This document shows positions 14,161 to 31,221 of a stretch of DNA of 64,000 nucleotides, piece by piece; the first letter of the stretch is position 1; each line of letters begins with the position of its first letter. The notes below the pieces were generated by a model. It was given only the letters and a program-made list of their open reading frames with translations, searched no databases and had not been told where the DNA came from. The position numbers and the translations under genes were made by a program. The DNA lies in assembly GCF_027213645.1 (NCBI RefSeq), contig NZ_JAPWGL010000003.1:682001-746000 (forward strand). The letters are read 5' to 3'. Origin of the DNA: Pedobacter rhodius. Its GTDB lineage: Bacteria; Bacteroidota; Bacteroidia; Sphingobacteriales; Sphingobacteriaceae.

Positions 14161-14282
14161 TCAGCGGCTTAGTGTATTTTTTTGATTTTTTTTAATCTTG
14201 TTTTTTATAATTAAAGTTCTGATTATCAGTTTTTTAAATCATAGTGTATAAGCTACAATATGTAAAAAAAGCCTTTAAAAAA

Positions 14283-14315
14283 TTTGATTCTTCCGTAAAA
14301 ATCTATTTACATTTG
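14283..14315 (+). promoter_or_regulatory. pckA promoter
   Basis: TTTG (14283-14286), 21 nt, TACATTTG (14308-14315). The predicted start near 14322 leaves a leader of only about 16 nt. Confidence 0.65.
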
Positions 14316-14337
14316 CTCCACTAACTAACTTATTGTT

Positions 14338-15933: not shown

Positions 15934-16004
15934 ATGTCGGTTTAAATGCATTTTTTACGCAAAAAATTTGCAATTCGATTTTTTTTTAGTTTTTATTGTG
16001 GAAG

Positions 16005-16032
16005 AATTGCCTCCGGCTGAGGCAATTTTTTT
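16005..16032 (+). terminator. pckA terminator
   Basis: AATTGCCTC, loop CCGGCT-like, GAGGCAATT, followed by seven or more T residues. Confidence 0.85.
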
Positions 16033-16103
16033 GTTATATACCCAACGGATAAATGGTGAACTAAAAAGTTAAGTAACGATTTAATTGTTTATTGATTTAT
16101 TAA

Positions 16104-16133
16104 TTTGTAATTTAAAATCAATTTATAAATTTG
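16104..16133 (+). promoter_or_regulatory. Promoter of the exbB-exbD-tonB operon
   Basis: TTTG (16104-16107), 18 nt, TAAATTTG (16126-16133). The leader would be about 90 nt. Confidence 0.65.
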
Positions 16134-16231
16134 TTTTCGCAACAAAATCAGGTAAACTTACGTTGTGTGTAATACAATATAAAAAAACAGCTAAAAATTA
16201 AAAACAAGAACTAAAACTAAAAATTAAAAAA

Positions 16232-17062
16232 ATGGCAAACGCACCAAAACCAACAACTGTTAAAACTGAAAGCTCTTCAAGTGCATCGAATGTATTTGCA
16301 ACATTTGTTATTCCAATTTGTATCGTTATCGGATTTATCATCTGGAGATTCGTATTGGGTGCTTCTGATAACTTTATCGGAGGAGACAACAATAATTTAC
16401 CATTACCTAACAACTATCCTGGTACAGCTTATAAAGGTGGTCCGATTGTAGCTATCTTAATCGGCTTGCTTTTAGTCGTTATCGTTTTCTCTATCGAGCG
16501 TTTAATCGTTATTGGTAAAGCAAGTGGTAAATCAAGCTTAGATACTTTTATCATCAAAGTAAAAGGTTTCTTAAATTCGGGTAACATCGAAGCTGCAAAA
16601 GCAGAATGCGATAAACAACAAGGTTCTGTTGCAGCTGTAATTAAATCAGGTTTAAAAAAATACAGCGAAGTTGAAGCTGACACAAATATGGACGTTGAGC
16701 AATCAATCGTTGCTATTCAAAAAGAAGTGGAAGAAGCTACAGCTTTAGAAATGCCGATGTTAGAGCAAAACTTAACTGTAATTGCAACTTTAGTATCAAT
16801 CGGTACATTAATCGGTTTATTAGGCACGGTAACAGGTATGATTCGTGCATTCGCGGGTTTAGCTAACTCTGGTGCTCCGGATCAATCAGCATTAGCGGTA
16901 GGTATCTCTGAGGCGTTAATTAATACAATGACTGGTATTGCTGTATCTACTTTAGCAATTATTATGTATAATATCTTAACTTCTAAAATTGATAAGTTAA
17001 CTTATGCAATTGATGAAGCAGGATTTAGCATCGTTCAAACTTACGCTAGTTCGCATAAATAA
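16232..17062 (+). CDS. exbB: MotA/TolQ/ExbB proton channel family protein
   Basis: Inner-membrane component of the TonB energising complex, 276 residues. An N-terminal hydrophobic helix (about 23-45) is followed by a second one (about 70-90), a cytoplasmic region with EKEVEEATALEMP, and two further helices. The C-terminal pair contains the family core TLVSIGTLIGLLGTVTGMI. The extra N-terminal helix is common in Bacteroidota ExbB. It is the first gene of a seven-gene operon that supplies proton-motive force to outer-membrane TonB-dependent receptors. Confidence 0.94.
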   Translation: MANAPKPTTVKTESSSSASNVFATFVIPICIVIGFIIWRFVLGASDNFIGGDNNNLPLPNNYPGTAYKGGPIVAILIGLLLVVIVFSIERLIVIGKASGKSSLDTFIIKVKGFLNSGNIEAAKAECDKQQGSVAAVIKSGLKKYSEVEADTNMDVEQSIVAIQKEVEEATALEMPMLEQNLTVIATLVSIGTLIGLLGTVTGMIRAFAGLANSGAPDQSALAVGISEALINTMTGIAVSTLAIIMYNILTSKIDKLTYAIDEAGFSIVQTYASSHK

Positions 17063-17140
17063 GAATTTTGAAAAAATTTTTACCGGCTTTATGGAAAACC
17101 GGAAAAAAGATCATCATTATTAAAAACTAGTAAAAATATT

Positions 17141-17758
17141 ATGCCTAGAATTAAAGTTAAAAGAACAAGTACGGTAACAGATATGACGGCCATGTGTGAT
17201 GTGGCATCATTGTTACTTACTTTCTTCATTTTGACTGCTACGGCAAGACAACCGGAACCCCTAGCTGTTTCTACACCCTCATCTACTTATGAGTTTAAGG
17301 TGCCTGTAGAAAACAACGCAATTTTAACAATTGGGCAGGGAAAGGTTTTCTTCGAAGTTGCAGGTCAGAAAGTAAGAGCAAGAACATTAGAGCTGATGGG
17401 CGAGCAATACAAAATTACCTTCACACCTGAAGAGATTAACCGGTTCTCCGGAATATCAAGTTTTGGAGTTCCGATTCAGAACCTGAAATCATTAATCGCA
17501 ATGAATGGTGCTGATCGTATGAAGCCTGGTGTTCAGCCAGGTATCCCTGCAGATTCAACCGATAATCAGTTGAATTCGTGGGTGCTAAATGCTCGTAAAG
17601 CCACTAAAGAGTTGAATAATATGGATATGCGACTAAGCATCAAGGGCGATGCTAAAGAAGAATATCCTGTTGTGAAAAAGGTTGTTGATATCCTTCAGAA
17701 ACAAAGTATTAACAAGTTTTTGTTAGTTACAAATGCTGAAGCTAAAAAGAAGAAATAA
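17141..17758 (+). CDS. exbD: ExbD/TolR family protein, first copy
   Basis: Inner-membrane ExbD-type protein of 205 residues. The N-terminal helix contains TAMCDVASLLLTFFILTAT, with the conserved membrane Asp after Cys. The periplasmic part is longer than in the second copy, and it is clearly divergent from it. Bacteroidota commonly carry two unlike ExbD genes behind exbB, and this pair follows that pattern. Only 3 nt separate it from the next gene, which indicates co-transcription and perhaps translational coupling. Confidence 0.92.
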   Translation: MPRIKVKRTSTVTDMTAMCDVASLLLTFFILTATARQPEPLAVSTPSSTYEFKVPVENNAILTIGQGKVFFEVAGQKVRARTLELMGEQYKITFTPEEINRFSGISSFGVPIQNLKSLIAMNGADRMKPGVQPGIPADSTDNQLNSWVLNARKATKELNNMDMRLSIKGDAKEEYPVVKKVVDILQKQSINKFLLVTNAEAKKKK

Positions 17759-17761
17759 GAA

Positions 17762-18268
17762 ATGGCAGAATTAAACACAGGCGGGAAGAAAGCCACGCCA
17801 AGGGTCGATATGACTCCAATGGTGGATTTGATGTTTCTTTTGGTAACATTCTTTATCTTAACCACTGTAATATCTACGCCTCAGGCAATGGATATTGCTA
17901 AACCGGATAAAAATGAAAAAATGCCGGAAAACAGATTGGAGCTTAAAGCGACCAAAACCATGACTGTTTTATTAGGTAAAAATAATAAAGTTGCATGGTA
18001 CATGGGTGAAGCAGGTAAAAGTGCTCCAACAATTGAATCTTTAAATCAGATCGAAAAATCAATTGAAGAAAATAGAACAAAAGCTAATAATTCCGGTGTT
18101 TCCGGAGAGTTTACAGTTCTTGTAAAACCAACTTCAGGTTCTACTTTCCAAAACTTTGTTGATATGATGGATGAGTTAGAGATTATGAAAGTGAAATCCC
18201 GTCAGATTGATGATGATAACATTCTTGATAGTGAGAAAGATTTCATGAAAGAACAAGGTATTTTATAA
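17762..18268 (+). CDS. exbD: ExbD/TolR family protein, second copy
   Basis: ExbD-type inner-membrane protein of 168 residues with the core VDMTPMVDLMFLLVTFFIL and the conserved Asp in MVDLMF. It resembles the orphan ExbD at 10.8 kb much more than the preceding copy, sharing a YMGE box and an MTVLLGKN-type segment. It probably forms the proton channel with ExbB, possibly as a heteromer with the first ExbD. Confidence 0.92.
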   Translation: MAELNTGGKKATPRVDMTPMVDLMFLLVTFFILTTVISTPQAMDIAKPDKNEKMPENRLELKATKTMTVLLGKNNKVAWYMGEAGKSAPTIESLNQIEKSIEENRTKANNSGVSGEFTVLVKPTSGSTFQNFVDMMDELEIMKVKSRQIDDDNILDSEKDFMKEQGIL

Positions 18269-18286
18269 TTAATAAAATCAGGAATT

Positions 18287-19102
18287 ATGTCGAAGTTAGA
18301 TATATTTAGAAAAGAATGGCTGGAAGTCGTTTTTGCTGATAAAAACAAAGCTTATGGTGCTTATCAATTAAGAAAAGGTAGCGCCAACAATACAACGAAA
18401 GCACTTTTATACGGTTCAGTTGTATTCTTGATTTTGTTTTTCTCACCAAAAATCTACAGCCTTATAAAGGGTGCTATTCCGGAAGAGGAAAAATTGAAGG
18501 CACAGGAAGTTGTGCTAAGCCCACCTCCTCCTGTTAACCCTGAAACACCGCCACCACCGCCGGTAGAGCCACCGCCACCAAAAGTGGATCAGGTAAAAAT
18601 GCCACCTCCGATTGTAAAACCGGATATTGAAGTGCAGGACGAACCACCTACAGTTGAAAAATTGAAAGAGGCAGATCCAGGACAAAAAGATATTAAAGGT
18701 GACCCTACTGCAGATATTGTTATTGCTGAACCAGTTGGTGAAGGACCTAAGCGTGAAGCTGCAGTTGCTGTAGATGATAATAAAGTTTATGACTTTGTTA
18801 GTATCGAAAAAGTTCCTGAATTCCCGGGCGGTATGTCGAAGTTTTATGCTTTCTTGCAAAAAACAATGAAGTATCCACCGATGGCTCAGGAAAACAATGT
18901 TCAGGGTAAAGTTTGGTTATCTTTCGTTGTGGAGCGTAATGGTGAACTAACTGATATCGTAGTAACACGCGGTTTAGGTAGCGGTACTGACGAAGAAGCT
19001 AAACGTGTACTAAAAGCTAGTCCGCGTTGGGTTCCGGGTATTCAGAACGGTAAACCTGTACGTGTAAAATACAACATCAACATTAACTTTACACTTCAAT
19101 AG
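18287..19102 (+). CDS. tonB: TonB family energy transducer
   Basis: Transduces energy from ExbB/ExbD to outer-membrane receptors. The 271 residues comprise a cytoplasmic N-terminus with KNKAYGAYQLRK, typical of Bacteroidota TonB, one membrane helix (about 40-60), a proline-rich periplasm-spanning region (about 80-115, several PPPP runs), an acidic linker and a C-terminal TonB domain ending in VKYNININFTL. The C-terminal signature YPPMAQENNVQGKVWLSFVV is clear. It is 18 nt behind the second exbD. Confidence 0.94.
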   Translation: MSKLDIFRKEWLEVVFADKNKAYGAYQLRKGSANNTTKALLYGSVVFLILFFSPKIYSLIKGAIPEEEKLKAQEVVLSPPPPVNPETPPPPPVEPPPPKVDQVKMPPPIVKPDIEVQDEPPTVEKLKEADPGQKDIKGDPTADIVIAEPVGEGPKREAAVAVDDNKVYDFVSIEKVPEFPGGMSKFYAFLQKTMKYPPMAQENNVQGKVWLSFVVERNGELTDIVVTRGLGSGTDEEAKRVLKASPRWVPGIQNGKPVRVKYNININFTLQ

Positions 19103-19106
19103 TAGA

Positions 19107-19325
19107 ATGTTAAATTTTGATATTTTTAAGCAAAAATCGCCTAAACAGCGGTTTTTGCTCATTTTAGGCCTAATCATGTTTGTATTTTATTTAGGCATCG
19201 GCCTGGCATGTATTTTCTGGGCAGATTTACCTTTAAATATCGGAAGGCCTTATAAAATAGGTATCGGGATATTTCTAATTATTTATGCTTTTGTAAGATT
19301 ACTAAGCCTCGGAAGGCGTGACTAA
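19107..19325 (+). CDS. Small two-helix membrane protein
   Basis: A 72-residue protein I do not recognise by name. Two hydrophobic segments (about residues 17-39 and 46-64) flank a short loop with LPLNIGRPYKIG. It sits 4 nt after tonB and 6 nt before the PstS-like gene, so it is firmly inside the operon. Small proteins at this position are common in related operons. A structural role in the ExbB/ExbD/TonB complex is possible but unproven. Confidence 0.75.
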   Translation: MLNFDIFKQKSPKQRFLLILGLIMFVFYLGIGLACIFWADLPLNIGRPYKIGIGIFLIIYAFVRLLSLGRRD

Positions 19326-19331
19326 TTATTA

Positions 19332-20231
19332 ATGAGAAACATTCTTTTATTATTTATTGTATTATCACTTTTTTCTTGTAAACGCAAAGAAAAAAGTGGC
19401 GGCATTGAAGAAACCCGCACCAGCGGAACTTTAAAAATGCTTGTTGATGAAAGTGTTGGGCCAATTGTTCAGCAGGAAATTGACATATTTAAATTGGATT
19501 ATCCTCAGGCAACTTTTTTAACAACTTTTAAGCCGGAATTGAAATTGCTACCGGCATTTTTAAATGATACCGCCCGTGTGATTGTTTTACCAAGAATGCT
19601 GACTAAAGCGGAGGAAAAATTTTATAATCAGAGAAGCATAAAAATTAACACATCTCGATTTGCAGTTGATGGACTTGCATTAATTACAAATAAGGGCAAT
19701 ATTGACAGTACAATTAACGTTAAAGATGTAGTAGATATATTACAGGGAAAAGGGTCGGGAAAACAATTGGTATTTGATAACGCTTATTCCAGCACATTTC
19801 AGTATTTTAAGCAATTGGCTAAGCTTAGCCAATTTCCTTCAAAAGACGTTTATTCGAAAAATTCTAGTAATGAGGTAATTAAACTTATTGCAGAAGATAA
19901 AAAATTTATTGGTATTTTAGGCGTTAATTGGCTTTCAGACCGAAACCCTGAATGGCTGAAATACCAGGATAAGGTTAAAATACTGGGCGTAAAAAATTAT
20001 AAGGGTGAACCGGGCGCTGATAAATATTATCAGCCTACGCAAATTAACCTGATAAATGGCGATTACCCTTTTTTAAGAAACATTAATATTATCGACTGTG
20101 AGGGCAGAGATGGTTTAGGCACGGGGTTTGCAGTATGGTTAAGGAGTCAAAGAGGACAGTTAATCGTACTTAAATCTGCATTGGCACCTCATAAATTAAT
20201 GCCACGGGAATTGAACATAACAAAAAAATAA
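19332..20231 (+). CDS. PstS-like phosphate-binding lipoprotein
   Basis: A 299-residue periplasmic substrate-binding-protein fold with a lipoprotein signal peptide (LFIVLSLFSCKRK; lipid anchor on Cys16). The sequence is related to the phosphate ABC transporter substrate-binding family: LVDESVGPIVQQEI near the start, and FVQ-like lobes later. No ABC transporter genes are present; the gene lies inside the TonB operon instead. This context suggests a role tied to TonB-dependent uptake or envelope sensing rather than classical Pst transport. That role is inference. Confidence 0.8.
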   Translation: MRNILLLFIVLSLFSCKRKEKSGGIEETRTSGTLKMLVDESVGPIVQQEIDIFKLDYPQATFLTTFKPELKLLPAFLNDTARVIVLPRMLTKAEEKFYNQRSIKINTSRFAVDGLALITNKGNIDSTINVKDVVDILQGKGSGKQLVFDNAYSSTFQYFKQLAKLSQFPSKDVYSKNSSNEVIKLIAEDKKFIGILGVNWLSDRNPEWLKYQDKVKILGVKNYKGEPGADKYYQPTQINLINGDYPFLRNINIIDCEGRDGLGTGFAVWLRSQRGQLIVLKSALAPHKLMPRELNITKK

Positions 20232-20344
20232 TAAATTGAACCAGGATTGTTTTAAACAATCAAAAATTAGAAAATAGAATATCAGATGAAGGTTGCATGG
20301 CTTATGTAAACTTTATAACCATTAAAAAAACATATTAAAGAACT

Positions 20345-22057
20345 ATGAAAATTTCAAAGAAAGCAATAACCTTAAATGTAGGTTTGGTGTTGATGGGTTC
20401 TGCAGTTTTTGCTCAAAGTTTAACCGACGCGAAAAAAGCGATTGATGCTGAACAATATCAAAAGGCATCTTCAATGCTTAAATCCTTAACAACCTCCCAA
20501 GCGTCTAATGGTGATAATTTTTATAACCTTGGCTTGGTTTATTTAAAGACCGGATATATTGATTCGGCCAGAGTTGTTTTTAACAAAGGTATCGCAGCAG
20601 ATGCTAAAAATGCATCAAATTATGCCGGACTGGGAGAGGCAGATTTATTATCAAATAATCCAACGTCTGCAAAAACAAATTTTGATAAAGCGGTTGCAGC
20701 GGCTCCAAAAGATTACAAAACGTATTTAGCAATTGGGAAAGCGTATTTGGCGCAAGACAAACCAGGTGATGTTGCTTCTAAACCGGATTTCGCAAATGCG
20801 ATTGCAAATCTGACTAAAGCAGATGAATTAGATGCTAAAGATAAAGATGCAGAAGTATTTATTGGTTTAGGTGATGCTTATGCATTGCAAAAGAAAAACT
20901 CTGAGGCAATTGGTCCTTATTTCCGCGTCGCTGATATTGACCCAACAAATAGAAGAGCAACAACGCAGGTAGGTAAAATGTACAAAGAATCCCGTGCATT
21001 TGCTGAAGGCGAAGAGGAATTAAAAAAGGTAATCGCAGCAGATGCCAATTATGGTCCTGCATACCGTGAACTGGGTGAGCTTTACTTACAGTGGAGTAGT
21101 TTTGGTACCGATAAAGAAAAAGCAGCTAAAGGTGTAGAATATTACAAAAAGTATTTAGACCTGACTGATAAATCTTTAGAATCTCAATTGCGTTACATGC
21201 AATTTTTATTCTATGCAAAAGATTTCCAGACACTGGAGCAAGTTGCTTCTACTATTCAGGTTCCTGCTAATGATCCTAAAGGTATTATCGTTTCGAGATT
21301 GAAAGGTTGGTCAGCCTATGAGAATAAAAATTATCCTCAGGCGTTGACTTATTTAACTGATTACTTTGCAAAGCAAAAAGATAAATCTAAAATTTTAGGT
21401 AATGATTATTTGTATTTAGGTAAAGCACAATTAAAAGCAGGTCAGGATAGTTTGGCCGTTGGCAATATCATAGAAGCGACTAAAATTGATTCCAATAACG
21501 CTGATGCTTTAGCAGAAGCTGGCTTAGCGTTAATGAAAGCAAAAAAATACGGTAAAGCAGGTGATTTGTACCAAATGGCAATTAAGTATAATCCCAACGG
21601 GAAAGGTTCACTCACAAATTATTATTATTTAGGTCAGACAAGGTTCTATGAGGCTTACACTGCTCAAAAAGAAAAAAAACCTGTTAATACTGCGCTATTG
21701 GTTGAAGCTGATTCAGCATTGAGTCATTTAAATAAAGTTTCTCCTGAATTTGCACTTGGTTATTTTATTAGGGGAAGAATTGCAAACTTTATGGATGATA
21801 AAACTAGTCCAAAAGGCGCTTGGGTGCCTTATTTCGAGAAATACATTGGTTTAGTTAAGCCCGAAGAAATTTCGGCTAACAAAGCAAATTTATCTGAATC
21901 TTACAACAATCTGGGTTCGTGGTATGCAGAGAAGGATAAGCCTAAAGCGATAGATTACTTCACTAAAAGTTTAGCGCTTGATCCAGCAGATACTTACGCC
22001 GCAGCCAGACTTAAGGAATTACAATCTCCAGCCCCGGCAAAAGGAAAAGGTAAATAA
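20345..22057 (+). CDS. Tetratricopeptide repeat protein
   Basis: A secreted or periplasmic 570-residue protein with a signal peptide (ending AVFAQ) and about ten TPR-like helical repeats. Examples are the repeat around FYNLGLVYLKTGYIDSARVV and the last one near YNNLGSWYAEKDKPKAIDYF. The C-terminus is a short Ala/Pro/Lys tail. It closes the exbB operon and is followed by a strong terminator. TPR proteins usually act as scaffolds, so it may organise the TonB-linked complex in the periplasm; this is inference from position. Confidence 0.85.
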   Translation: MKISKKAITLNVGLVLMGSAVFAQSLTDAKKAIDAEQYQKASSMLKSLTTSQASNGDNFYNLGLVYLKTGYIDSARVVFNKGIAADAKNASNYAGLGEADLLSNNPTSAKTNFDKAVAAAPKDYKTYLAIGKAYLAQDKPGDVASKPDFANAIANLTKADELDAKDKDAEVFIGLGDAYALQKKNSEAIGPYFRVADIDPTNRRATTQVGKMYKESRAFAEGEEELKKVIAADANYGPAYRELGELYLQWSSFGTDKEKAAKGVEYYKKYLDLTDKSLESQLRYMQFLFYAKDFQTLEQVASTIQVPANDPKGIIVSRLKGWSAYENKNYPQALTYLTDYFAKQKDKSKILGNDYLYLGKAQLKAGQDSLAVGNIIEATKIDSNNADALAEAGLALMKAKKYGKAGDLYQMAIKYNPNGKGSLTNYYYLGQTRFYEAYTAQKEKKPVNTALLVEADSALSHLNKVSPEFALGYFIRGRIANFMDDKTSPKGAWVPYFEKYIGLVKPEEISANKANLSESYNNLGSWYAEKDKPKAIDYFTKSLALDPADTYAAARLKELQSPAPAKGKGK

Positions 22058-22078
22058 ATTTTAATTGAATAATTTAGG

Positions 22079-22110
22079 AAAGGCAGAGTTGGTTACTCTG
22101 CCTTTTTTTA
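22079..22110 (+). terminator. Terminator of the exbB operon
   Basis: AAAGGCAGAG, loop TTGGTTA, CTCTGCCTTTTTTT. The hairpin is closely similar to the one at 23024-23055 on the other side of the small XRE/peptide module. Confidence 0.88.
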
Positions 22111-22128
22111 TGAATTAAGTTTAACTAA

Positions 22129-22500
22129 CTATTTGATATTTATGATTTTTTTTAACTCATCAATTTTTAGATTCTTCCGATTAACTTTTGCTTCCAATTC
22201 CACGATCCTTTTTTCTTGCTGAGAAATTATTTTTTTCATCAATTCTATCTCATTGATTGATTCATTTTCTTGTTCTGAAAATGATTGAATAGGTTTTTTA
22301 AAAATTGCTGCTAATTTTATCAACCTATCCATAGTGATTTTGATTCTTCCTGATTCAATTCTTTGATAAGTACTTTGTTCTACGTTGAGTAGTTTTGCTA
22401 TATATTCTTGGCTATAACATTTTTCATCTCTGAATTTCCGAAGGTTTTCATAACTAAAAACTTGTTTCATTTCGAGCCTAGTTAATTTTTTTGATTTCAT
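22129..22500 (-). CDS. XRE-family HTH regulator with leader-like N-terminus and coiled coil
   Basis: A 123-residue DNA-binding protein. The helix-turn-helix covers about residues 18-72 (SQEYIAKLLNVEQSTYQRIE is the core), and a C-terminal charged helix (about 80-123) with heptad-like spacing could dimerise. Before the HTH there is a 15-residue extension containing KKLTRLEMKQVF. This resembles the double-glycine leader of the peptide encoded divergently next door (KILTRKEVKEIF), with 7 of 12 positions identical. The gene is AT-rich, unlike its neighbours. It probably controls the divergent peptide gene and itself through the palindrome at 22541; this is inference. Confidence 0.85.
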   Translation of the reverse strand: MKSKKLTRLEMKQVFSYENLRKFRDEKCYSQEYIAKLLNVEQSTYQRIESGRIKITMDRLIKLAAIFKKPIQSFSEQENESINEIELMKKIISQQEKRIVELEAKVNRKNLKIDELKKIINIK

Positions 22501-22540
22501 AATTAAAAAATTAATATATTAAAAATGCTACCTAATTAAA

Positions 22541-22554
22541 GCATAAGTTTATGC
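22541..22554. promoter_or_regulatory. Palindromic candidate operator between regulator and peptide genes
   Basis: GCATAA-GT-TTATGC is a perfect 6-bp-arm inverted repeat in the 144-nt divergent intergenic region. Its position, about 40 nt from the regulator start and 90 nt from the peptide start, is suitable for an XRE dimer. A TATAAATTTTG segment near 22597-22611 may be part of the peptide promoter. Confidence 0.4.
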
Positions 22555-22644
22555 ATATACTGCTTAATTATATGTTCATTATATTTTACTATGTATAAAT
22601 TTTGCCATAAATTCAAACAAGATTTAATAATTAACTAAGATAAT

Positions 22645-22857
22645 ATGAAAAAATTTGGATTCGGTAATGGAAAAATTTTAACCAGAAAAGAGGTAAAAGA
22701 AATATTTGGTGGTGTAGTGAAATCAGACAATCCAGCATGTCTAGACCAGTGTCAAGATGCAGAAACAGATTGTAATGGTGGAGAAGTGTGTTGGACTGTT
22801 GAAACTGCGGGATGCGAATATCCTTATATGCCCAAAAAATGCGTTCGTATCATCTAA
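22645..22857 (+). CDS. Cys-rich peptide with Bacteroidota double-glycine leader (bacteriocin-like)
   Basis: A 70-residue precursor. Residues 1-23 form a leader of the Bacteroidota double-glycine type, with LTRKEVKEIFGG; cleavage is expected after Gly23. The remaining 47 residues contain six cysteines spaced 3, 6, 5, 7 and 8 residues apart, and are acidic overall. The even cysteine number fits a disulfide-bonded or otherwise modified secreted peptide. No peptidase-containing ABC transporter, immunity gene or modification enzyme is adjacent, so export machinery must be encoded elsewhere. The role (antimicrobial, signal or other) is unknown. Confidence 0.75.
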   Translation: MKKFGFGNGKILTRKEVKEIFGGVVKSDNPACLDQCQDAETDCNGGEVCWTVETAGCEYPYMPKKCVRII

Positions 22858-23023
22858 TTCAATTAGAATATATTTTTAAAATATGTAAGCAGGTAACTGT
22901 AATTAATTTATTCAAATATTCTGAACTTAGTTATAAGTCATGAGTTTTTTGCAAATTAATTAGCTAGTTAAGTTTATATATTGCTTGTTTCATTAGAAAA
23001 CATTAATTATAAAGTTAATTAAT

Positions 23024-23055
23024 AAAAAGGCAGGGTTTTGTTACTCTGCCTTTTT
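23024..23055 (+). terminator. Terminator-like hairpin in front of nuoA
   Basis: AAAAAGGCAG pairs with CTGCCTTTTT around a GGTTTTGTTACT loop. It ends transcription coming from the peptide gene. Its loop carries the TTTG that serves as -33 element of the nuoA promoter. Confidence 0.8.
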
Positions 23056-23067
23056 CTTTTACTTTTG
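23037..23067 (+). promoter_or_regulatory. nuo operon promoter
   Basis: TTTG (23037-23040), 19 nt, TACTTTTG (23060-23067), an excellent consensus match. The predicted transcription start near 23074 leaves a leader of about 12 nt before the chosen nuoA ATG. Confidence 0.7.
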
Positions 23068-23085
23068 CATCAGAAAATAGATGTT

Positions 23086-23457
23086 ATGCAAGCACAAAGT
23101 ACCGCAATAGATTTTTTACCAATTATTTTTCAAGTAGTTGTTGCCCTGGGTTTTGTTGTTACTACCCTGGTTGCTACACACTTTTTAGGACCTAAACGTA
23201 AAACAAGCGATAAACTTGAAACTTTTGAGGCAGGTGTTAAGTCTGTTGGTAATGCCCGTCAACCATTCTCTATCAAATATTTCGTAGTGGCTATCTTATT
23301 CGTGCTGTTTGACGTAGAGGTTATTTTCATGTATCCATGGGCAGTAAATTTCAGAGCCCTAAAAATGGATGGAATGATAGAAATGTTCATCTTCATGGGC
23401 ACATTATTATTAGGATTTATCTATGTTATCAAGAAAAAAGTATTAGACTGGAATTAA
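23086..23457 (+). CDS. nuoA: NADH-quinone oxidoreductase subunit A
   Basis: Inner-membrane subunit of complex I, 123 residues with three helices. Landmarks are KRKTSDKLETFEAGVKSVG in the loop and LFDVEVIFMYPWAV in helix 2, both typical of NuoA. The reading frame extends upstream to 23038, but that part lies in the terminator hairpin and promoter; the ATG at 23086 (MQAQS) gives a normal length. It is the first gene of the nuo operon. Confidence 0.95.
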   Translation: MQAQSTAIDFLPIIFQVVVALGFVVTTLVATHFLGPKRKTSDKLETFEAGVKSVGNARQPFSIKYFVVAILFVLFDVEVIFMYPWAVNFRALKMDGMIEMFIFMGTLLLGFIYVIKKKVLDWN

Positions 23458-23590
23458 TTCTGGTTGCGTGTTTAAGGTTACGAATTGCAGGTTGGATGCC
23501 CTGTCTATATGAAGTATAACCTAAAATTGGCTACTAATTTAGAAAGGTTCTAAATCAAGCCGAACTGGTTTAATTGCCTTTAAAATATTG

Positions 23591-23632
23591 TAAATTTGTT
23601 GCTCATTCTGCAAAGGGATGAGCATTTTTTGT
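23591..23632 (+). promoter_or_regulatory. Possible internal promoter and hairpin between nuoA and nuoB
   Basis: TAAATTTG (23591-23598) matches the -7 consensus and is followed at once by TGCTCAT (23600-23606), an 11-nt loop, ATGAGCA (23618-23624) and six T residues. The hairpin is shaped like an intrinsic terminator or attenuator, 9 nt before the nuoB start. Confidence 0.5.
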
Positions 23633-23640
23633 TTATAAAC

Positions 23641-24183
23641 ATGAGTGAAATTAATATAGTTGATGCGCCTCCAGGAACCGAAGGACCTGGCTATTTTGCC
23701 ACTTCTTTAGATAAAGTGATTGGTTTGGCTCGTTCAAATTCATTATGGCCTCTACCGTTTGCCACTTCCTGTTGTGGAATAGAGTTTATGGCAACTATGG
23801 GTTCTCACTACGATTTAGGTCGTTTTGGTGCGGAGCGCCTTAGTTTTTCTCCCCGTCAGGCTGATGTTTTAATGGTTATGGGTACCATTGCTAAAAAGAT
23901 GGCTCCGGTATTAAAGCAGGTTTATATCCAAATGGCTGAGCCACGTTGGGTGATGGCTGTTGGTGCTTGCGCAAGTAGTGGCGGTATTTTTGATACTTAT
24001 TCTGTTTTACAAGGTATTGATGAGGTTATTCCTGTGGATGTTTACGTTCCGGGCTGCCCGCCAAGACCAGAAGCTATCTTGGATGGTTTCCAGCGTATTC
24101 AGGATTTGGTAAAAAACGAATCCGGAAGGAGAAGAAATTCTGATTATTATAAAGAACTTTTAGGTCAATACGGCATTAAATAA
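23641..24183 (+). CDS. nuoB: NADH-quinone oxidoreductase subunit B
   Basis: Peripheral-arm subunit that carries the N2 [4Fe-4S] cluster next to the quinone site. The 180 residues contain PFATSCCGIEFMA (tandem Cys), GACASSGGIFDTYSVLQG and VPGCPPRPEAILDG, which supply the cluster ligands. The frame is open further upstream, but the ATG at 23641 (MSEIN) gives the family N-terminus. It overlaps nuoC by one base. Confidence 0.97.
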   Translation: MSEINIVDAPPGTEGPGYFATSLDKVIGLARSNSLWPLPFATSCCGIEFMATMGSHYDLGRFGAERLSFSPRQADVLMVMGTIAKKMAPVLKQVYIQMAEPRWVMAVGACASSGGIFDTYSVLQGIDEVIPVDVYVPGCPPRPEAILDGFQRIQDLVKNESGRRRNSDYYKELLGQYGIK

Positions 24184-24683
24184 TGGAAGAAACGACACTA
24201 AATAACAGCATTCACGTCAAACTGACTGAGAAGTTTGGTGAAAAAGTTACTGCCGTTTCTGAGCCTTATGGTTTATTAACTTTTGTAACTTATAAAGATG
24301 TTATCATCAATGTGCTGTCACATCTTAAAGAGGAATTAAAATTTAATTTCCTTACGGATATTACTGCGGTTCATTATCCTGGTAAAGAACACGGTATTGC
24401 CGTTGTTTACCATCTGCATAATATGGTTGAAAAGATTAGAATTAGAATAAAGGTTTTTATTTCTGAACAAAATCCAACTATCCCTACGGCAACAACGGTT
24501 TGGAAAGGTGCAAACTGGATGGAACGCGAAACTTACGATTTGTTCGGGGTTAAATTTGAAGGCCACCCGGATTTACGCCGTATTTTAAATATGGATGATT
24601 TAGGTGTCCACCCGATGTTGAAGCAATATCCATTGGAAGACCCAAACAGAGTTGATAAAAAAGACGAATTTTTTGGAAGGTAA
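24183..24683 (+). CDS. nuoC: NADH-quinone oxidoreductase subunit C
   Basis: Peripheral-arm subunit (30-kDa family), 166 residues, separate from NuoD here, unlike the fused NuoCD of E. coli. The signature is in ERETYDLFGVKFEGHPDLRR followed by PLEDPNR. It is translationally coupled to nuoB (one-base overlap) and is 5 nt before nuoD. Confidence 0.95.
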   Translation: MEETTLNNSIHVKLTEKFGEKVTAVSEPYGLLTFVTYKDVIINVLSHLKEELKFNFLTDITAVHYPGKEHGIAVVYHLHNMVEKIRIRIKVFISEQNPTIPTATTVWKGANWMERETYDLFGVKFEGHPDLRRILNMDDLGVHPMLKQYPLEDPNRVDKKDEFFGR

Positions 24684-24688
24684 TTTAT

Positions 24689-25903
24689 ATGAATCATAAC
24701 CATCCGGTATTTACAGATAACGATCCGCAAAGTGAGCTGGTAACCTTAAACTTAGGTCCAACGCACCCTGCAACTCACGGCGTTTTTCAAAACGTTTTGC
24801 AACTAGACGGCGAGCGTATTGTAAGCGGCGTTTCTACAATTGGGTATATACACCGCGCTTTCGAAAAGATTGCCGAACACCGCCCTTTTTATCAAATCAC
24901 ACCGCTTACCGACCGTTTAAACTATTGTTCTTCGCCGATTAACAATATGGGCTGGCACATGACGGTTGAGAAATTACTGAATATCCAGATGCCAAAACGT
25001 GTTGATTATCTTCGGGTAATTATCATGGAACTTTCCCGTATCGCAGACCACATTATCTGTAATACGATTATTGGTCAGGATACCGGTGCAACAACAACTT
25101 TTCTTTACCTTTTTCAATTTCGTGAGCATATTTACGAAATTTTCGAAGAGGTTTGTGGTGCCCGTTTAACCACAAACATTGGCCGTATTGGCGGTTTCGA
25201 AAGAGATTTCAATGAGATTGCCTTTATGAAAATCAATAAATTTTTGAAAGAGTTTCCTGTTGCTTTAAAAGAATTTGAAAACCTTTTAACACGTAACCGT
25301 ATTTTCATCGATAGAACAGCCGGCGTTGCGGAGGTTACTAAAGAAACAGCGTTGGAATACAGCTGGACAGGGCCGCTTCTACGTGCTACCGGTGTAGATT
25401 ATGATGTTCGTGTAAGCGACCCATATTCTTCTTATCAGGATTTTGATTTCGAAGTTCCGGTTGGGACCAGTGGCGACATTTACGACAGGTATTTAGTTCG
25501 TAACGAGGAAATGTGGCAAAGTTTACGCATTATCGAACAAGCGGTTGTAAAGTTAAAAACAGAACCGAAAGGTATTTTTCATGCTGATGTTCCTGAATTT
25601 TATCTTCCTCCAAAACAAGAAGTTTACAATAATATGGAAGCATTAATCTATCACTTCAAAATTGTGATGGGCGAAATTGATGCGCCAAAAGCAGAAGTTT
25701 ATCATGCTGTAGAAGGTGGAAATGGTGAGTTGGGATTCTATTTAATTAATGATGGCGGGCGTACACCATATCGTTTACACTTCCGCAGACCAAGTTTTGT
25801 AAATTACCAAATGTTTGCACCAATGAGCGAGGGCATGTTATTGTCAGATGCCATTATCAACATGAGTAGTATGAATATTATTGCAGGAGAATTAGATGCT
25901 TAA
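24689..25903 (+). CDS. nuoD: NADH-quinone oxidoreductase subunit D
   Basis: Peripheral-arm 49-kDa subunit that forms the quinone-binding cavity with NuoB, 404 residues. Landmarks are LNLGPTHPATHGVFQNVLQL near the N-terminus, IGYIHRAFEKIAE, and IIGQDTGATTTF. The C-terminus MLLSDAIINMSSMNIIAGELD is typical. Its last 8 bases overlap the start of nuoE. Confidence 0.97.
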   Translation: MNHNHPVFTDNDPQSELVTLNLGPTHPATHGVFQNVLQLDGERIVSGVSTIGYIHRAFEKIAEHRPFYQITPLTDRLNYCSSPINNMGWHMTVEKLLNIQMPKRVDYLRVIIMELSRIADHIICNTIIGQDTGATTTFLYLFQFREHIYEIFEEVCGARLTTNIGRIGGFERDFNEIAFMKINKFLKEFPVALKEFENLLTRNRIFIDRTAGVAEVTKETALEYSWTGPLLRATGVDYDVRVSDPYSSYQDFDFEVPVGTSGDIYDRYLVRNEEMWQSLRIIEQAVVKLKTEPKGIFHADVPEFYLPPKQEVYNNMEALIYHFKIVMGEIDAPKAEVYHAVEGGNGELGFYLINDGGRTPYRLHFRRPSFVNYQMFAPMSEGMLLSDAIINMSSMNIIAGELDA

Positions 25904-26408
25904 AGTAGAAGAACAAACACCTGTACAATTTTCGTCAGAATTGCTTGCCAAATTTGACGATGTTAAAAGTCGTTATCCTGAAGGAAAACAAAAGTCAGCA
26001 TTGTTGCCATTGTTACACCTGGTGCAAGCGGAATTTCTTTGGGTGCCAACATCTGCAATGGATAAGATTGCTGAATATTTAAACATTCAACCAATTGAAG
26101 TTTATGAGGTAGCAACATTTTACACCATGTACTTTTTAAAACCCCAAGGTAAATTTGCTCTTGAGGTTTGCCGTACCGGTCCTTGTTGCCTGGTTGGCGC
26201 AGAAAAAATATTAGATCACTTAGAAAATAAGTTGGGTATTAAAGAAGGTGAAGTTACTGCCGACGGTTTGTTCAGCTTCAGAGGAGTTGAATGTTTGGCC
26301 GCCTGCGGATTTGGTCCGGTATTGCAAATTAGCCCGGAGTATACTTTCTATGAGAACCTAACCACCGAAAGTGTAGATAAATTGATTGAAGATTTAAAAA
26401 ATAAATAA
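25896..26408 (+). CDS. nuoE: NADH-quinone oxidoreductase subunit E
   Basis: Thioredoxin-like subunit of the NADH module, 170 residues, binding one [2Fe-2S] cluster. The ligands appear as CRTGPC and, later, CLAAC within FRGVECLAACGFGPV. N-terminal helices precede the ferredoxin-like domain. It overlaps nuoD; a repeat element separates it from nuoF. Confidence 0.95.
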   Translation: MLKVEEQTPVQFSSELLAKFDDVKSRYPEGKQKSALLPLLHLVQAEFLWVPTSAMDKIAEYLNIQPIEVYEVATFYTMYFLKPQGKFALEVCRTGPCCLVGAEKILDHLENKLGIKEGEVTADGLFSFRGVECLAACGFGPVLQISPEYTFYENLTTESVDKLIEDLKNK

Positions 26409-26484
26409 ACCCCCCGGCTTCCTGAAGGGGGAGTTTAATAAAAGAGGGGAAAATTTCCCTTCAGGGGATTTAGGGGTATATAAA
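26409..26484. repeat. Bacteroidota intergenic repeat between nuoE and nuoF
   Basis: Short C and G runs form nested inverted repeats (CCCCC...GGGGG near 26410-26433, and GGGGAAAATTT CCC... TTCAGGGG near 26447-26468). The phrase with CTTCAGGGGATTTAGGGG is a dispersed type common in this phylum. It fills the whole gap between the two coding regions. Confidence 0.65.
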
Positions 26485-27852
26485 ATGAGTCGCAAATTAT
26501 TACTTGAGCATATAAACGTACCAGGCATCAACACACTTGAAGTCTATCGCCAAAAAGGCGGGTACCGTGCCGTGGAAAAAGCCCTTAAAACTTTAACACC
26601 TGAAGAGGTTGTTGAAGAAGTTAAGAAGTCTGGCTTACGCGGGCGTGGTGGTGCGGGTTTCCCAACGGGGATGAAATGGAGCTTTCTTGCCAAGCCGGAA
26701 GGTGTTGCCCGTTATTTGGTTTGCAATGCCGACGAGTCTGAGCCAGGAACTTTTAAAGATCGTTACCTGATGACTTACATTCCTCATGCTTTAATTGAGG
26801 GAATGATTGTTTCCAGTTTTGCCTTGGGCGCAAAGGTTTCATACATCTATGTTCGTGGAGAAATGATGCCTCAAATCCGTATTCTGGAAAAAGCAATTGC
26901 TGAAGCTAAAGCGGCCGGATGGTTAGGAAAAAATATTTTAGGAACAGGTTACGATTTAGAATTATATGTTCAGCCGGGCGGCGGCGCTTATATTTGCGGA
27001 GAGGAAACTGCTTTGTTGGAATCGCTTGAAGGCAAAAGAGGTAATCCAAGAATTAAACCTCCATTTCCTGCAATTGCAGGCCTATATGGATGTCCAACAG
27101 TAGTAAATAACGTTGAGTCTATTGCTGCAGTTGTGCCGATTATCAATGATGGTGGTGAAGAATATGCAAAAATTGGTATCGGTAGAAGTACAGGTACAAA
27201 ATTAATATCAGCATCCGGTAACTTAGTTAAACCAGGTGTATATGAAATCGAATTAGGTTTGCCGGTAGAAGAATTTATCTATTCTGATGAATATTGTGGC
27301 GGTATTGCTAATGGTAAAAAATTAAAAGCAACGGTTGCAGGCGGTTCCTCGGTTCCAATTTTACCGGCCAACTTAACTTTAAAATATGCAAATGGCGAAC
27401 CTCGTTTAATGAGTTACGAATCTTTATCCGAAGGTGGATTTGCTACAGGAACGATGATGGGTTCGGGTGGTTTTATCGCTTTTGATGAAGATCAGTGTAT
27501 CGTTCGTAATACCTGGAATTTCGCTCGTTTTTACCATCACGAAAGTTGCGGACAATGCTCACCTTGTCGTGAAGGTACCGGATGGATGGAAAAAATTCTT
27601 CACAAAATTGAGCATGGACATGGAACAATAGAAGATGTTGATTTATTATGGGACGTTCAACGTAAAATTGAAGGAAATACCATTTGTCCTTTAGGTGACG
27701 CAGCAGCCTGGCCGGTAGCTAGTGCGATACGCCACTTTAGAGATGAATTTGAATGGCACATTAAAGAGCCAATTAAGAGCCAGAGTCAAAATTATGGTTT
27801 AGCAAATTATGCTACTCCTATAGAAAAAGCTCCTGTAACGGAAGAGAAATAA
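26485..27852 (+). CDS. nuoF: NADH-quinone oxidoreductase subunit F
   Basis: The 51-kDa subunit that binds NADH, FMN and the N3 [4Fe-4S] cluster, 455 residues. Visible motifs are [16 protein letters not shown] (nucleotide), [17 protein letters not shown] (FMN), [20 protein letters not shown], and the cluster ligands [13 protein letters not shown] with a fourth Cys in NTICPLGDA. It is the electron entry point of complex I. It is followed by an unrelated ORF6N gene instead of nuoG. Confidence 0.97.
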
Positions 27853-27913
27853 CGTGATTTATTATAGGATACAATAAAGATTAAAATTCAACTAAATAAA
27901 GAAATATATGTAA

Positions 27914-28456
27914 ATGAAAGAAGAAATATCACCAGCTATCATCCCCAACGAAGTAATAGTTAATAAAATATATCTTTTTAGAGGAGTGAAGGTGATGTTG
28001 GATTCTGATTTGGCAGAACTCTTTGGCGTTGAGAATAGACATTTAAAACAGCAAGTTAGACGAAATATAGAGCGTTTTCCAGAAAACTTTATGTTTGAGT
28101 TAACTAAAGAAGAAAACGAGGTTCTAAGATCACAATTTGTGATCTTAGAACAGGGAAAATACTCAAAATATCTACCTTTCGCATTTAGTGAACATGGTAT
28201 TTTGCAACTATCAAATGTTTTAAAAAGTAAACAGGCGGTAGAAGTAAGTATAAAAATTATAGATGTATTTGTACAGCTTAGGACGATGGTTTTAAGTAAT
28301 GCCGAGATAAGAATAGAAGTAGAAAAGATTAAAAAGAAAGTAGATAATCAGGATAAAAACATCGAAGTGATATTCAGATATTTTGATGAACTACTAGAAC
28401 AGAAAGCACAACCAAGGAAAGAAATTGGTTATAAAATCTCGGAAGAGAAAAAATAA
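27914..28456 (+). CDS. ORF6N domain-containing DNA-binding protein inside the nuo operon
   Basis: A 180-residue protein with an ORF6N domain at about residues 12-100 (family core: VMLDSDLAELFGVENRHLKQ, then RNIERFPENFMFELTKEE, LRSQFV and LPFAFSEHG). A C-terminal helical region follows (about 120-165). ORF6N domains occur in phage antirepressors and mobile elements and are thought to bind DNA. The gene sits between nuoF and nuoG on the same strand with short gaps, so it is probably transcribed with the operon. It has no known role in complex I and is best seen as an insertion. A 31-nt palindrome lies in its coding sequence. Confidence 0.88.
   Translation: MKEEISPAIIPNEVIVNKIYLFRGVKVMLDSDLAELFGVENRHLKQQVRRNIERFPENFMFELTKEENEVLRSQFVILEQGKYSKYLPFAFSEHGILQLSNVLKSKQAVEVSIKIIDVFVQLRTMVLSNAEIRIEVEKIKKKVDNQDKNIEVIFRYFDELLEQKAQPRKEIGYKISEEKK
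28121..28151. repeat. 31-nt palindrome inside the ORF6N gene
   Basis: GTTCTAAGATCACAA, one central T, TTGTGATCTTAGAAC: two 15-nt arms that are perfect reverse complements. It encodes the conserved LRSQFVIL part of the ORF6N protein. Confidence 0.9.
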
Positions 28457-28467
28457 AATAAAAAAAG

Positions 28468-28515
28468 ATTGCTTCGTGCTTCGTATCCGATAGCTATCGA
28501 ATGACGGCATAAAGC
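28468..28515. repeat. Degenerate repeat with CGATAG-CTATCG palindrome
   Basis: GATTGCTTCGTGCTTCG...AATGACG resembles one arm of the 25-bp inverted repeat at 53042-53116. A 12-bp perfect palindrome CGATAGCTATCG (28488-28499) is embedded in it. It lies between the ORF6N gene and nuoG. Confidence 0.55.
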
Positions 28516-28541
28516 ATAAAAAATAAAGATTATCATTAACC

Positions 28542-29552
28542 ATGAGTGAAAAAGTTAAGGTTACGATAGATGGAATAACAGTAGAGGTTGATAACGGAAC
28601 CACTATCCTAAATGCCGCAAGGCAAATTGGAGGTGATATCGTTCCGCCGGCAATGTGCTATTATTCTAAGTTAGAAGGCAGTGGTGGTAAATGCCGTACC
28701 TGTATTGTTAAGGTAACAAAAGGTTCGGAAAAAGATCCACGCCCGATGCCAAAATTGGTTGCATCTTGCCGTACAACAGTGATGGACGGTATGGAGGTGC
28801 TTAATATTACTTCGCCAGAGGTTTTAGAAGCACGCGCAGGTGTGGTGGAGATTTTATTGATTAACCACCCATTGGATTGCCCGGTTTGCGACCAGGCAGG
28901 TGAATGTGATTTACAAAACTTAGGTTACGAACACGGCTTGCAAAAAACGCGTTATGAGTTTGAGCGCCGTACTTTCGAACGTATTGATATTGGCGATAAA
29001 ATTCAATTACATATGAATCGTTGTATTCTGTGTTATCGTTGTGTTTTCACGGCTGACCAGATTACAAACAAACGTGTTCATGGTATCCTAAATCGTGGCG
29101 ACCACTCAGAGATTTCGACTTATATCCAGCAAGCAGTTGATAACGATTTCTCCGGAAACGTGATTGATGTTTGCCCTGTTGGTGCCTTAACCGATAAAAC
29201 CTTCCGCTTCAAAAACCGTGTTTGGTTTACCAAACCAGTTGACGCGCACCGCAACTGCGATCATGAAAAATGCAATGGTAAGGTAACGCTCTGGTATAAA
29301 GGAGAAGATGTTCTACGTGTTACGGCTCGTAAAGATCAGTTCGGAGAAGTAGAGGCGTTTATCTGTAACACCTGCCGTTTTGATAAGAAGGCAACTTCTG
29401 ACTGGGTTATTGAACATCCGACACATATTGATGATACTTCGGTAATCGCATCAAATCATTATGAAACATTAAAACCTTTGCACGTTATTCAGCCGAATCA
29501 GGCGTTACAAGCTGCAAATGAAATTGAATTACATAAAACAGTAAAATACTAA
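28542..29552 (+). CDS. nuoG: NADH-quinone oxidoreductase subunit G, short form
   Basis: Iron-sulfur subunit of the NADH module, 336 residues, compared with about 900 in E. coli. The N-terminal [2Fe-2S] ferredoxin domain (CYYSKLEGSGGKCRTC and a later Cys), the His-Cys cluster site (HPLDCPVCDQAGECDLQ) and a third cluster region (RCILCYRC...VCPVGALTDK) are all present. After them only the start of the molybdopterin-oxidoreductase-like part remains (HRNCDHEKC, then ICNTC), and its large catalytic-like domain is absent. Short NuoG proteins appear to be usual in this bacterial group. It shares one base with nuoH. Confidence 0.93.
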   Translation: MSEKVKVTIDGITVEVDNGTTILNAARQIGGDIVPPAMCYYSKLEGSGGKCRTCIVKVTKGSEKDPRPMPKLVASCRTTVMDGMEVLNITSPEVLEARAGVVEILLINHPLDCPVCDQAGECDLQNLGYEHGLQKTRYEFERRTFERIDIGDKIQLHMNRCILCYRCVFTADQITNKRVHGILNRGDHSEISTYIQQAVDNDFSGNVIDVCPVGALTDKTFRFKNRVWFTKPVDAHRNCDHEKCNGKVTLWYKGEDVLRVTARKDQFGEVEAFICNTCRFDKKATSDWVIEHPTHIDDTSVIASNHYETLKPLHVIQPNQALQAANEIELHKTVKY

Positions 29553-30589
29553 TGGATACAGGTTTTATCATAGAAAAATTTATTCTGGTAGCCGTAATTT
29601 TCGGTATCAGTTTGGTAATTGCCATGTATTCTACTTATGCGGAGCGCAAGGTTGCAGCTTATCTTCAAGACCGTTTAGGTCCGGATAGAGCTGGTCCTTT
29701 TGGTATTTTACAACCACTTGCCGACGGTGTAAAGATGTTTATGAAAGAGGAAATCATTCCTACCACATCAAATAAATGGTTATTTATCGTTGGCCCGGGT
29801 TTAGCATTACTTTGTGCCTGTATTGGTACGGCCGTTATTCCATGGGGCAGTCCGATGGTTATCGGTGATAAAGTTATTCCTTTACAGGTTTCTGATATCA
29901 ATGTAGGCGTTTTATATATCTTTGGTGTCGTTTCACTTGGTGTTTATGGGGTAATGATTGGCGGTTGGGCGTCGAATAACAAATACTCTTTATTGAGTGC
30001 AATTCGTGCAGCGTCGCAAAATATCAGTTATGAAATCGCAATGGGATTATCCATCATCGCTTTGCTTTTAATGACGAATACTTTAAGCTTAAAAACAATT
30101 GTTGAACAACAGCATGGCTGGCATTGGAATGTTTTATACCAGCCGTTAGGATTTTTAATCTTTATGGTATGTTCTTTTGCTGAAACCAACCGTGCGCCAT
30201 TCGACTTACCTGAATGCGAAACGGAATTAATCGGTGGTTACCATACAGAGTATTCATCAATGAAATTAGGTTTTTACCTTTTCGCTGAATACATCAACAT
30301 GTTTGTTTCATCGGCAGTAATGGCAACTTTATATTTCGGGGGCTACAACTATCCGGGTATGGATTATATGGCTACATTGCTAGGGCCAACCTGGGCACCT
30401 TTATTTGGAACAGCGATTTTATTTGCTAAAATATTTTTCTTCATCTTTTTCTTTATGTGGGTACGCTGGACAATCCCTCGTTTCCGTTATGACCAATTGA
30501 TGAATTTAGGTTGGAAAGGTTTAATACCTCTGGCCATTGCCAACATTATAATAACCGGTGTTGTGATTGCGATTATTGAGAAGTTTTAA
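29552..30589 (+). CDS. nuoH: NADH-quinone oxidoreductase subunit H
   Basis: Membrane subunit at the junction of the two arms, 345 residues with about eight helices. The signatures are AAYLQDRLGPDRAGPFG, ILQPLADGVKMFMKEE and NRAPFDLPECETELIGGYH, which line the quinone entry channel. Its start overlaps the nuoG stop by one base. Confidence 0.97.
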   Translation: MDTGFIIEKFILVAVIFGISLVIAMYSTYAERKVAAYLQDRLGPDRAGPFGILQPLADGVKMFMKEEIIPTTSNKWLFIVGPGLALLCACIGTAVIPWGSPMVIGDKVIPLQVSDINVGVLYIFGVVSLGVYGVMIGGWASNNKYSLLSAIRAASQNISYEIAMGLSIIALLLMTNTLSLKTIVEQQHGWHWNVLYQPLGFLIFMVCSFAETNRAPFDLPECETELIGGYHTEYSSMKLGFYLFAEYINMFVSSAVMATLYFGGYNYPGMDYMATLLGPTWAPLFGTAILFAKIFFFIFFFMWVRWTIPRFRYDQLMNLGWKGLIPLAIANIIITGVVIAIIEKF

Positions 30590-30591
30590 TT

Positions 30592-31095: not shown

Positions 31096-31098
31096 ATT

Positions 31099-31198: not shown

Positions 31199-31221
31199 GG
31201 ACATAAACAAATAACAAATTA

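Follow-up and report, generated by a model that had tools for sequence, protein, structure and literature searches.

Why would a small DNA-binding protein begin with what looks like the export signal of the peptide encoded beside it? The question is raised by two divergent genes, 144 bp apart, in a 64,000-nucleotide stretch of the Pedobacter rhodius genome (contig NZ_JAPWGL010000003.1, positions 682,001 to 746,000; hereafter the window). One gene encodes an XRE-type regulator and the other a Cys-rich peptide precursor with a double-glycine (GG) leader. A sequence-only reading had placed both genes correctly and had claimed that the N-terminal tail of the regulator imitates the leader of its neighbour. 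We find that the leader mimic is real and recurs within Pedobacter rather than being a one-off, and that tails co-vary with the leaders beside them; we propose, tentatively, that such a tail senses export capacity. The parts of the pair, in window coordinates, are as follows.

22129–22500, minus strand: XRE/HTH_3 regulator of 123 residues with a GG-leader-like N-terminus (open reading frame (ORF), Pfam HTH_3, family alignment)
22450–22485, minus strand: leader mimic LTRLEMKQVFSY, residues 6–17, equivalent to leader positions −12 to −1, with SY in place of GG (matrix scores, alignment)
22279–22446, minus strand: helix-turn-helix (HTH) domain, residues 19–74, recognition helix near EQSTYQRIE (Pfam HTH_3, AlphaFold2 model)
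22135–22260, minus strand: long C-terminal helix, residues 81–122, probably a dimerizing coiled coil (AlphaFold2 model)
22541–22554, unstranded: putative operator O1, GCATAAGTTTATGC, an imperfect palindrome (comparable site at all 20 leader-bearing loci)
22562–22575, unstranded: O2, a possible second, degenerate copy with 10 of 14 matches, 21 bp from O1 (site comparison across loci)
22645–22857, plus strand: GG-leader Cys-rich peptide precursor of 70 residues, its six Cys all within the core (ORF translation)
22678–22713, plus strand: peptide leader motif LTRKEVKEIFGG (translation)

A leader-like tail in a Pedobacter regulator family

The window regulator matched HTH_3 (Pfam PF01381; E = 3e-12, residues 20–72, 46.8 bits against a curated cut-off of 23). 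In its AlphaFold2 model the first 20 residues form a low-confidence tail (pLDDT ~60) with a short helix at residues 8–12, detached from the HTH as far as the low confidence there allows; the HTH (19–74) is followed by a single long helix (81–122). The peptide precursor has hydrophobic residues at leader positions −12, −7 and −4 followed by GG, and a 47-residue core. A Pfam and NCBIfam scan up to E = 10 returned no matching model for this peptide, and four relatives reached leader models, all below their cut-offs. Translation from M11, which would leave the tail outside the protein, was rejected, since relatives keep the amino-acid sequence of the tail while its codons change.

On recount, the regulator segment KKLTRLEMKQVF and the peptide leader KILTRKEVKEIF are identical at seven of 12 residues, as the sequence-only reading had it. 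The window tail has L, M and V at −12, −7 and −4, and S-Y at −2/−1 where a leader would have GG, GA or GS. To measure the likeness we used two matrices, one of 28 hand-picked Pedobacter GG leaders not adjoining a family regulator (a few atypical leaders were omitted), the other of leaders beside family members, with the own leader left out. With the independent matrix the window regulator scored 13.3, compared with a mean of −10.3 and a maximum of 8.2 for the N-termini of 280 other long ORFs, and 11 of 20,000 shuffles of its N-terminus matched it. With the neighbour-leader matrix it scored 17.9, a value equalled by none of 2000 shuffles. On these statistics chance likeness was rejected, and the likeness is better than that of random N-termini, the comparison on which the sequence-only reading had staked its claim. 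Among family members, 16 of 20 (neighbour-leader matrix) and 13 of 20 (independent matrix) exceeded the 280-ORF maximum. Control XRE entries from outside the family (66, including some genes twice) reached at most 7.2 with the leader matrix, whereas 17 of the 20 family members scored at least 8; the best of 13 hand-picked non-family XRE N-termini scored 9.5 (L042).

Among 145 genomes of the genus, 18 matches reached E = 1e-35 or better, the next following only at 1e-22. Together with two decayed copies in the genome of the window (L045 and L046) and a frameshifted duplicate (L050b), they make up a family of 21 regulator loci in 14 Pedobacter-genus genomes, whose aligned regulators are 38–65% identical to that of the window. 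By pattern search a divergent GG-peptide gene is present at all 21 loci, the peptides of L055 and L113 having very short cores. A family regulator with no peptide gene nearby, which the sequence-only reading had named as telling against its idea, was thus not found among the 21. A GG peptide adjoined none of the 66 control XRE entries (~1.5 kb flanks) and, within the DNA examined, none of six distant relatives from a genome-contig scan. An order-level search of 400 sampled genomes returned, at E = 1e-19, 13 genomes of the genus and G058 only, whose homologue has neither tail nor, in 9 kb, a GG peptide. In a class-level sample of 395 genomes the matches outside the genus did not improve on 1.7e-20, and the loci fetched showed neither a GG peptide nor a tail with a score of 8.

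Twenty of the 21 family regulators carry the leader-like N-terminus. Fifteen of these are open through the HTH and the long helix (that of L057 seems to end early at its C-terminus), and five are broken (L045, L046, L050b, L060 and L113). The exception, L059, has a first HTH protein that scores about −16 with the leader matrix. Its tandem second HTH protein reads LLSANEMKAF and scores 2.1 and 7.8 with the two matrices. At this locus (L059:9956–10650) the second protein, with its leader-like segment, overlaps the tailless regulator, and the mimic may have moved to the partner.

In leader numbering the tail consensus is L(−12) S/T R/K x E(−8) M/L(−7) K(−6) x V/I(−4) x small(−2) x(−1). The motif was placed with a regular expression written after the sequences had been seen; MAFFT alignments made independently of it give the same register. 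The determinants read by the C39 peptidase are kept, with a hydrophobic residue at −12 in 20 of 20 tails, at −7 in 16 and at −4 in 19 plus one Tyr. Position −6 is K or R in all 20, −2 is G, S, C or A in 19, and −1 is G in eight and D, E, N, H or Y in 11. The claim that the regulator lacks the GG holds for the window and fails for part of the family, since five of 20 tails (L054, L058, L060, L061 and L113) keep the full GG. In the tails, the position corresponding to GG coincides with the beginning of the HTH or lies immediately ahead of it.

Tail–leader co-variation and a conserved intergenic site

To determine whether tails resemble the leader of their own neighbour in particular, we aligned each tail with every leader. 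The mean local alignment score of tails with their own neighbour's leader was 39.45, against 32.55 (sd 1.35) under permutation (p = 5e-5, n = 20). The match remained without L107a, L107b and L050b (p = 1.5e-4, n = 17), over five parameter sets (n = 18, p = 5e-5 to 1.5e-4) and within clades (n = 18, p = 0.0003). Contrasts between locus pairs, drawn up in two sets, gave seven positive and one negative (p = 0.020) and six and one (p = 0.031), respectively; clades and pairs were chosen with a weakly resolved tree that omits L045, L046 and L050b, and some pairs are not true sisters. The check proposed by the sequence-only reading, alignment of tails with neighbouring leaders, therefore came out in its favour, at p of about 1e-4. 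The clearest case is L107 (genome G317), where the tail FEGAKELTRAEQKNVYG stands beside the leader FAGAKELTRAEMKNVMG and the match extends to −18. In L055, a close relative of L107, leader and tail are both short.

Residues shared by tail and leader use different codons at 76 of 148 positions, where 83.4 would be expected under independent draws (synonymous sites being near saturation). Judged by codon use, the likeness is kept at the protein level and not through recent copying of DNA.

The intergenic region holds a second conserved feature. Of two patterns applied, the looser detected a palindrome-like site of 14 bp at all 20 leader-bearing loci, reading GCATAAATTTATGC or GAATAAATTTATTC apart from small differences. 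In 16 of the 20 a second copy (at least nine of 14 matches) is found 21 bp away on the side of the peptide gene; it is absent from L058, L060, L061 and L113. The recognition residues vary with the site: six regulators with QSTYQR face GCAT and 13 with K there face GAAT (19 of 19, L050b being unscored), although the QSTYQR group is a weakly supported branch and the correspondence could reflect a single change. In the 4.68-Mb genome of the window the exact pattern GCATAANTTTATGC occurs in two places, this pair and the decayed paralogue L045; with one mismatch it has 23 matches, compared with 15 for a reversed control pattern. The looser pattern with one mismatch is no commoner in the window than in shuffles. 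Because the exact pattern is restricted to this pair and L045, the regulator probably acts on its own locus. At the level of sequence, then, this is a conserved two-gene module in which the tail is kept and follows the leader beside it, and in which the intergenic site is conserved as well.

What the tail may sense

How bacteria match the production of secreted peptides to exporter capacity is, to our knowledge, poorly understood. We tentatively propose an autoregulated two-gene module in which a decoy-leader regulator ties peptide transcription to C39 export capacity. Following this logic, the regulator would bind the palindromic sites as a dimer and control both divergent promoters, as the conserved, co-varying site suggests. 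The N-terminal tail, a counterfeit GG leader by its sequence, would dock in the leader groove of the C39 domain of a peptidase-containing ATP-binding cassette (ABC) exporter and compete there with the precursor, staying mostly uncut because its GG is usually damaged. Docked and free tails would give different DNA occupancy, so that peptide transcription would track free export capacity. Were the regulator a repressor, a free exporter would hold it and the peptide would be on; a saturated or absent exporter would release it and the peptide would be off. With slightly less confidence still, we consider it possible that such a transcription factor uses its counterfeit leader as a sensor, occupying the cargo dock of the exporter and reporting free capacity directly, with no second messenger. 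Sensor and cargo signal would then evolve together, since both must fit the same dock. A tail that copies the export tag of its neighbour suggests that the cell senses its peptide-export machine by a false cargo label.

We prefer docking on C39 because the residues kept in the tails are those at positions −4, −7 and −12 that the pockets of a C39 peptidase are described as binding (PMC10885120), and because the likeness runs toward positions that serve exporter choice in other systems: the source on pneumococcal RtgAB describes leader region −22 to −18 as governing that choice (PMC7018657), and the match of the L107 tail, which extends to −18, adjoins it. We also count in favour of docking the GG neighbour at 21 of 21 family loci as opposed to none of the 66 and six controls, the matching of tails to the leaders of their own neighbours, the near-saturated synonymous sites, the exporters described below with their peptides of like leader style, the loose predicted tail and the site at 20 of 20 loci.

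Several observations weigh against this proposal. The window pair has no pair-specific match, its own leader ranking fourth of 20 and both contrasts that include it being −5, so that the pair-specific evidence comes from relatives; own leaders also rank low, of 20, in L050 (17th), L053 (15th), L050b (13th) and L045 (10th). Some tails are poor leaders (L111, −3.1; L061, 4.2; L062, 5.9), and −7 is not hydrophobic in four of 20 (K in L055, Q in L107a and L107b, S in L045), which speaks against docking for those members, given that an acidic or basic residue at −7 is described as blocking processing by LahT (PMC6363468). Promoter mapping with a Bacteroidota −33/−7 consensus was inconsistent between loci and was rejected as a basis for calling the regulator a repressor or an activator. 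Docking of the tail, DNA binding by the regulator and the effect on transcription, with its sign, are steps that we infer.

The exporters themselves are compatible with the proposal and show no association. The genome of the window has four C39 exporters, at G000 C5:922716, C1:962371, C1:1118202 and C5:394676, and 12 of the 14 family genomes have at least one; the two without, G367 and G372, are metagenome assemblies with completeness of 95% and 84%. Since 124 of the 145 genus genomes carry a C39 exporter, 12 of 14 is no enrichment, a further point on the opposing side. Ten of the 12 exporter-bearing family genomes encode, next to an exporter, a peptide with this style of leader, as do two of the four clusters in the genome of the window (NLLSRAEMKNVMGG and GEVLSRNEMRMIKGG). 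The exporter regions fetched from G150 and G161 contained no peptide of this style, which lowers the odds of docking very slightly, part of the loss passing to the pseudo-ligand alternative below. For the L058 pair of P. polaris, an exporter cluster is ~6 kb away, and the peptide belonging to that cluster carries the leader NILSKNEMKNVFGG.

The same tail determinants and co-variation would be expected if the tail were an internal pseudo-ligand, with which uncut precursor, or free leader remaining inside the cell once cleaved off, competes for a site on the regulator or a partner, so that export flux is read and the exporter is left untouched. For HetC, a working model has been put forward in which the remnant of a leader acts on a transcriptional regulator (PMC10986499). 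We consider this alternative unlikely, since the tail keeps C39 pocket residues that another receptor would not require and the model predicts a tail detached from the HTH, albeit at low confidence there.

Less likely again is a plain N-terminal arm or helix that the regulator inherited from a wider XRE family, serving DNA contact or stability and resembling a leader by ancestry and coincidence. Arms that contact DNA are known from lambda repressor, and a sibling XRE family (L042, L019, L021, L043, L044 and L047) has N-termini such as KLRLEMKEVA that are weakly leader-like, one of them scoring the 9.5 given above; the two of its loci that were checked, L019 and L021, showed no GG peptide nearby. 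Against an ordinary arm stand the control XRE entries, none of which reached 8 (17 of 20 in the family) or adjoined a GG peptide. Nor would an arm be expected to co-vary with neighbouring leaders or to keep the full GG in five members.

That full GG, present in five of 20 tails where the HTH begins or immediately ahead of it, would fit a regulator that is a substrate, cut there by the C39 peptidase to free or inactivate its DNA-binding part. We regard this as very improbable: 15 of 20 tails, including that of the window, lack the GG, 11 of 20 carry D, E, N, H or Y at −1, and two of the five GG-bearing regulators (L060 and L113) are broken genes. Equally improbable is a functionless relic, left when the starts of the two genes were duplicated in inverted orientation or converted one by the other, which the divergent layout and a weak resemblance at the DNA level (29 of 51 bases agree between the window starts) would allow. 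Against a relic, amino acids are kept while the DNA has drifted to nearly independent codons, and own-neighbour matching persists within clades; nor would a relic retain the −12/−7/−4 pattern in regulators 38–65% identical to that of the window.

The proposed C39-docking regulator can be set beside known systems, of which Foldseek matched C.BclI, C.AhdI, lambda repressor and CylR2 to the fold of the window regulator. Controller proteins of restriction-modification systems, such as C.BclI and C.AhdI, are autoregulated through tandem operator sites and were among the best fold matches; they differ in having no peptide, and the 57-column match leaves out the window tail and most of the long C-terminal helix. 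No restriction-modification genes were recognized by eye among the ORFs of window positions 14000–32000, the 14 to 32 kb interval inspected. Quorum regulators of the RRNPP/Rgg type have a C-terminal tetratricopeptide repeat (TPR)-like peptide-binding domain; the 123-residue window regulator has no Pfam match to one, and a single long helix follows its HTH. Transcription factors held by transporters are known from MalT–MalK and Mlc–PtsG, which would share the logic of a regulator reading the state of a transporter; we know of none of this type that uses a counterfeit secretion signal. With GG leaders and peptidase-containing ABC transporters the tail shares the −12, −7 and −4 recognition pattern, and it differs in standing on a DNA-binding protein, mostly without GG. 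CylR2, from the enterococcal cytolysin operon, is likewise a small protein with this HTH fold encoded divergently from a peptide operon; it binds between overlapping promoters, and the cytolysin peptides are trimmed and exported by CylB (PMC3709268). The window pair has the same layout, its HTH_3 regulator and GG-peptide genes diverging from an intergenic region that contains a putative palindromic site. The passages cited describe no leader-like tail on CylR2, whose signal is thought to pass through the membrane protein CylR1, and the cytolysin operon includes its own modification and export genes (PMC3709268). No CylR1-like membrane partner was recognized among the ORFs flanking the window pair, where no family-based search was made. 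The HetC model in Nostoc likewise links the leader remnant of a C39 exporter to a transcriptional regulator; it is a proposal only, and the passages cited describe no leader-like sequence on the regulator (PMC10986499).

A limited search of open-licence PMC literature found no system with a leader-like tail on a regulator. The new part is the tail, the divergent layout and the fold resembling known systems, and the idea of the sequence-only reading that the regulator carries a leader mimic is borne out by scores and co-variation, its wider interpretation in part. If docking is true, a copy of the cargo label on a regulator would be a simple and direct way to couple production to export. Site and tail together offer a handle for finding orphan peptide genes, and tail–leader co-variation amounts to natural mutagenesis of exporter specificity.

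Surroundings of the pair, exporter neighbours and an RNA element

By eye, the neighbours of the window pair resemble a TPR protein and NADH dehydrogenase subunits. In Pedobacter UBA4863 (L054:1–19692) a pair lies at the same place as window positions 14338–32054, between TPR and NADH dehydrogenase genes (again by eye), and its peptide core is unlike that of the window: the address is the same and the cargo different. The decayed copies in the window's own genome, L045 (G000:C8) and L046 (G000:C5:788 kb), are two further regulator–peptide pairs whose regulators are frameshifted or split and whose peptide genes are open.

One exporter cluster in the genome of the window was typed as an exporter, an HlyD protein and a VKOR/thioredoxin/C39-like protein. 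An exporter neighbour (L170:5465–7039) combines degenerate C39, VKOR and thioredoxin domains in one protein, and another with a weak C39 match (L172:4846–6429) looks like it. Both are possibly for disulfide formation in Cys-rich peptides.

Many GG peptides of Pedobacter, in exporter clusters and in some regulator pairs, are preceded by a structured 5′ untranslated region of ~100 nucleotides with two strongly co-varying hairpins and an upstream arm. Double changes were seen at 13 of 16 pairs, and none of 500 shuffles was as good. Of 145 genomes from the genus, 45 contained the element, and among 301 genomes of the family it was confined to Pedobacter; its loci include L170:7096–7195, L177, L179, L180, L181, L182, L190, L196, L060 and L113. 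The window peptide has none, and an Rfam scan of ten loci gave no family matching at the element. All 25 fetched matches, about a third of which were used in building the model, end 13–24 nucleotides before the ATG of a peptide with this type of leader (24 with GG, L248 with AG). At L058:18791 the element precedes an exporter gene, and no peptide was seen downstream of L107:7877, L107:10639, L055:10393 and L190:9309. Three of these copies (L107:7877–7973, L107:10639–10733 and L055:10393–10488, minus strand) lie just past a regulator stop codon on the opposite strand, and look as if the regulator had been inserted between the element and the peptide gene.
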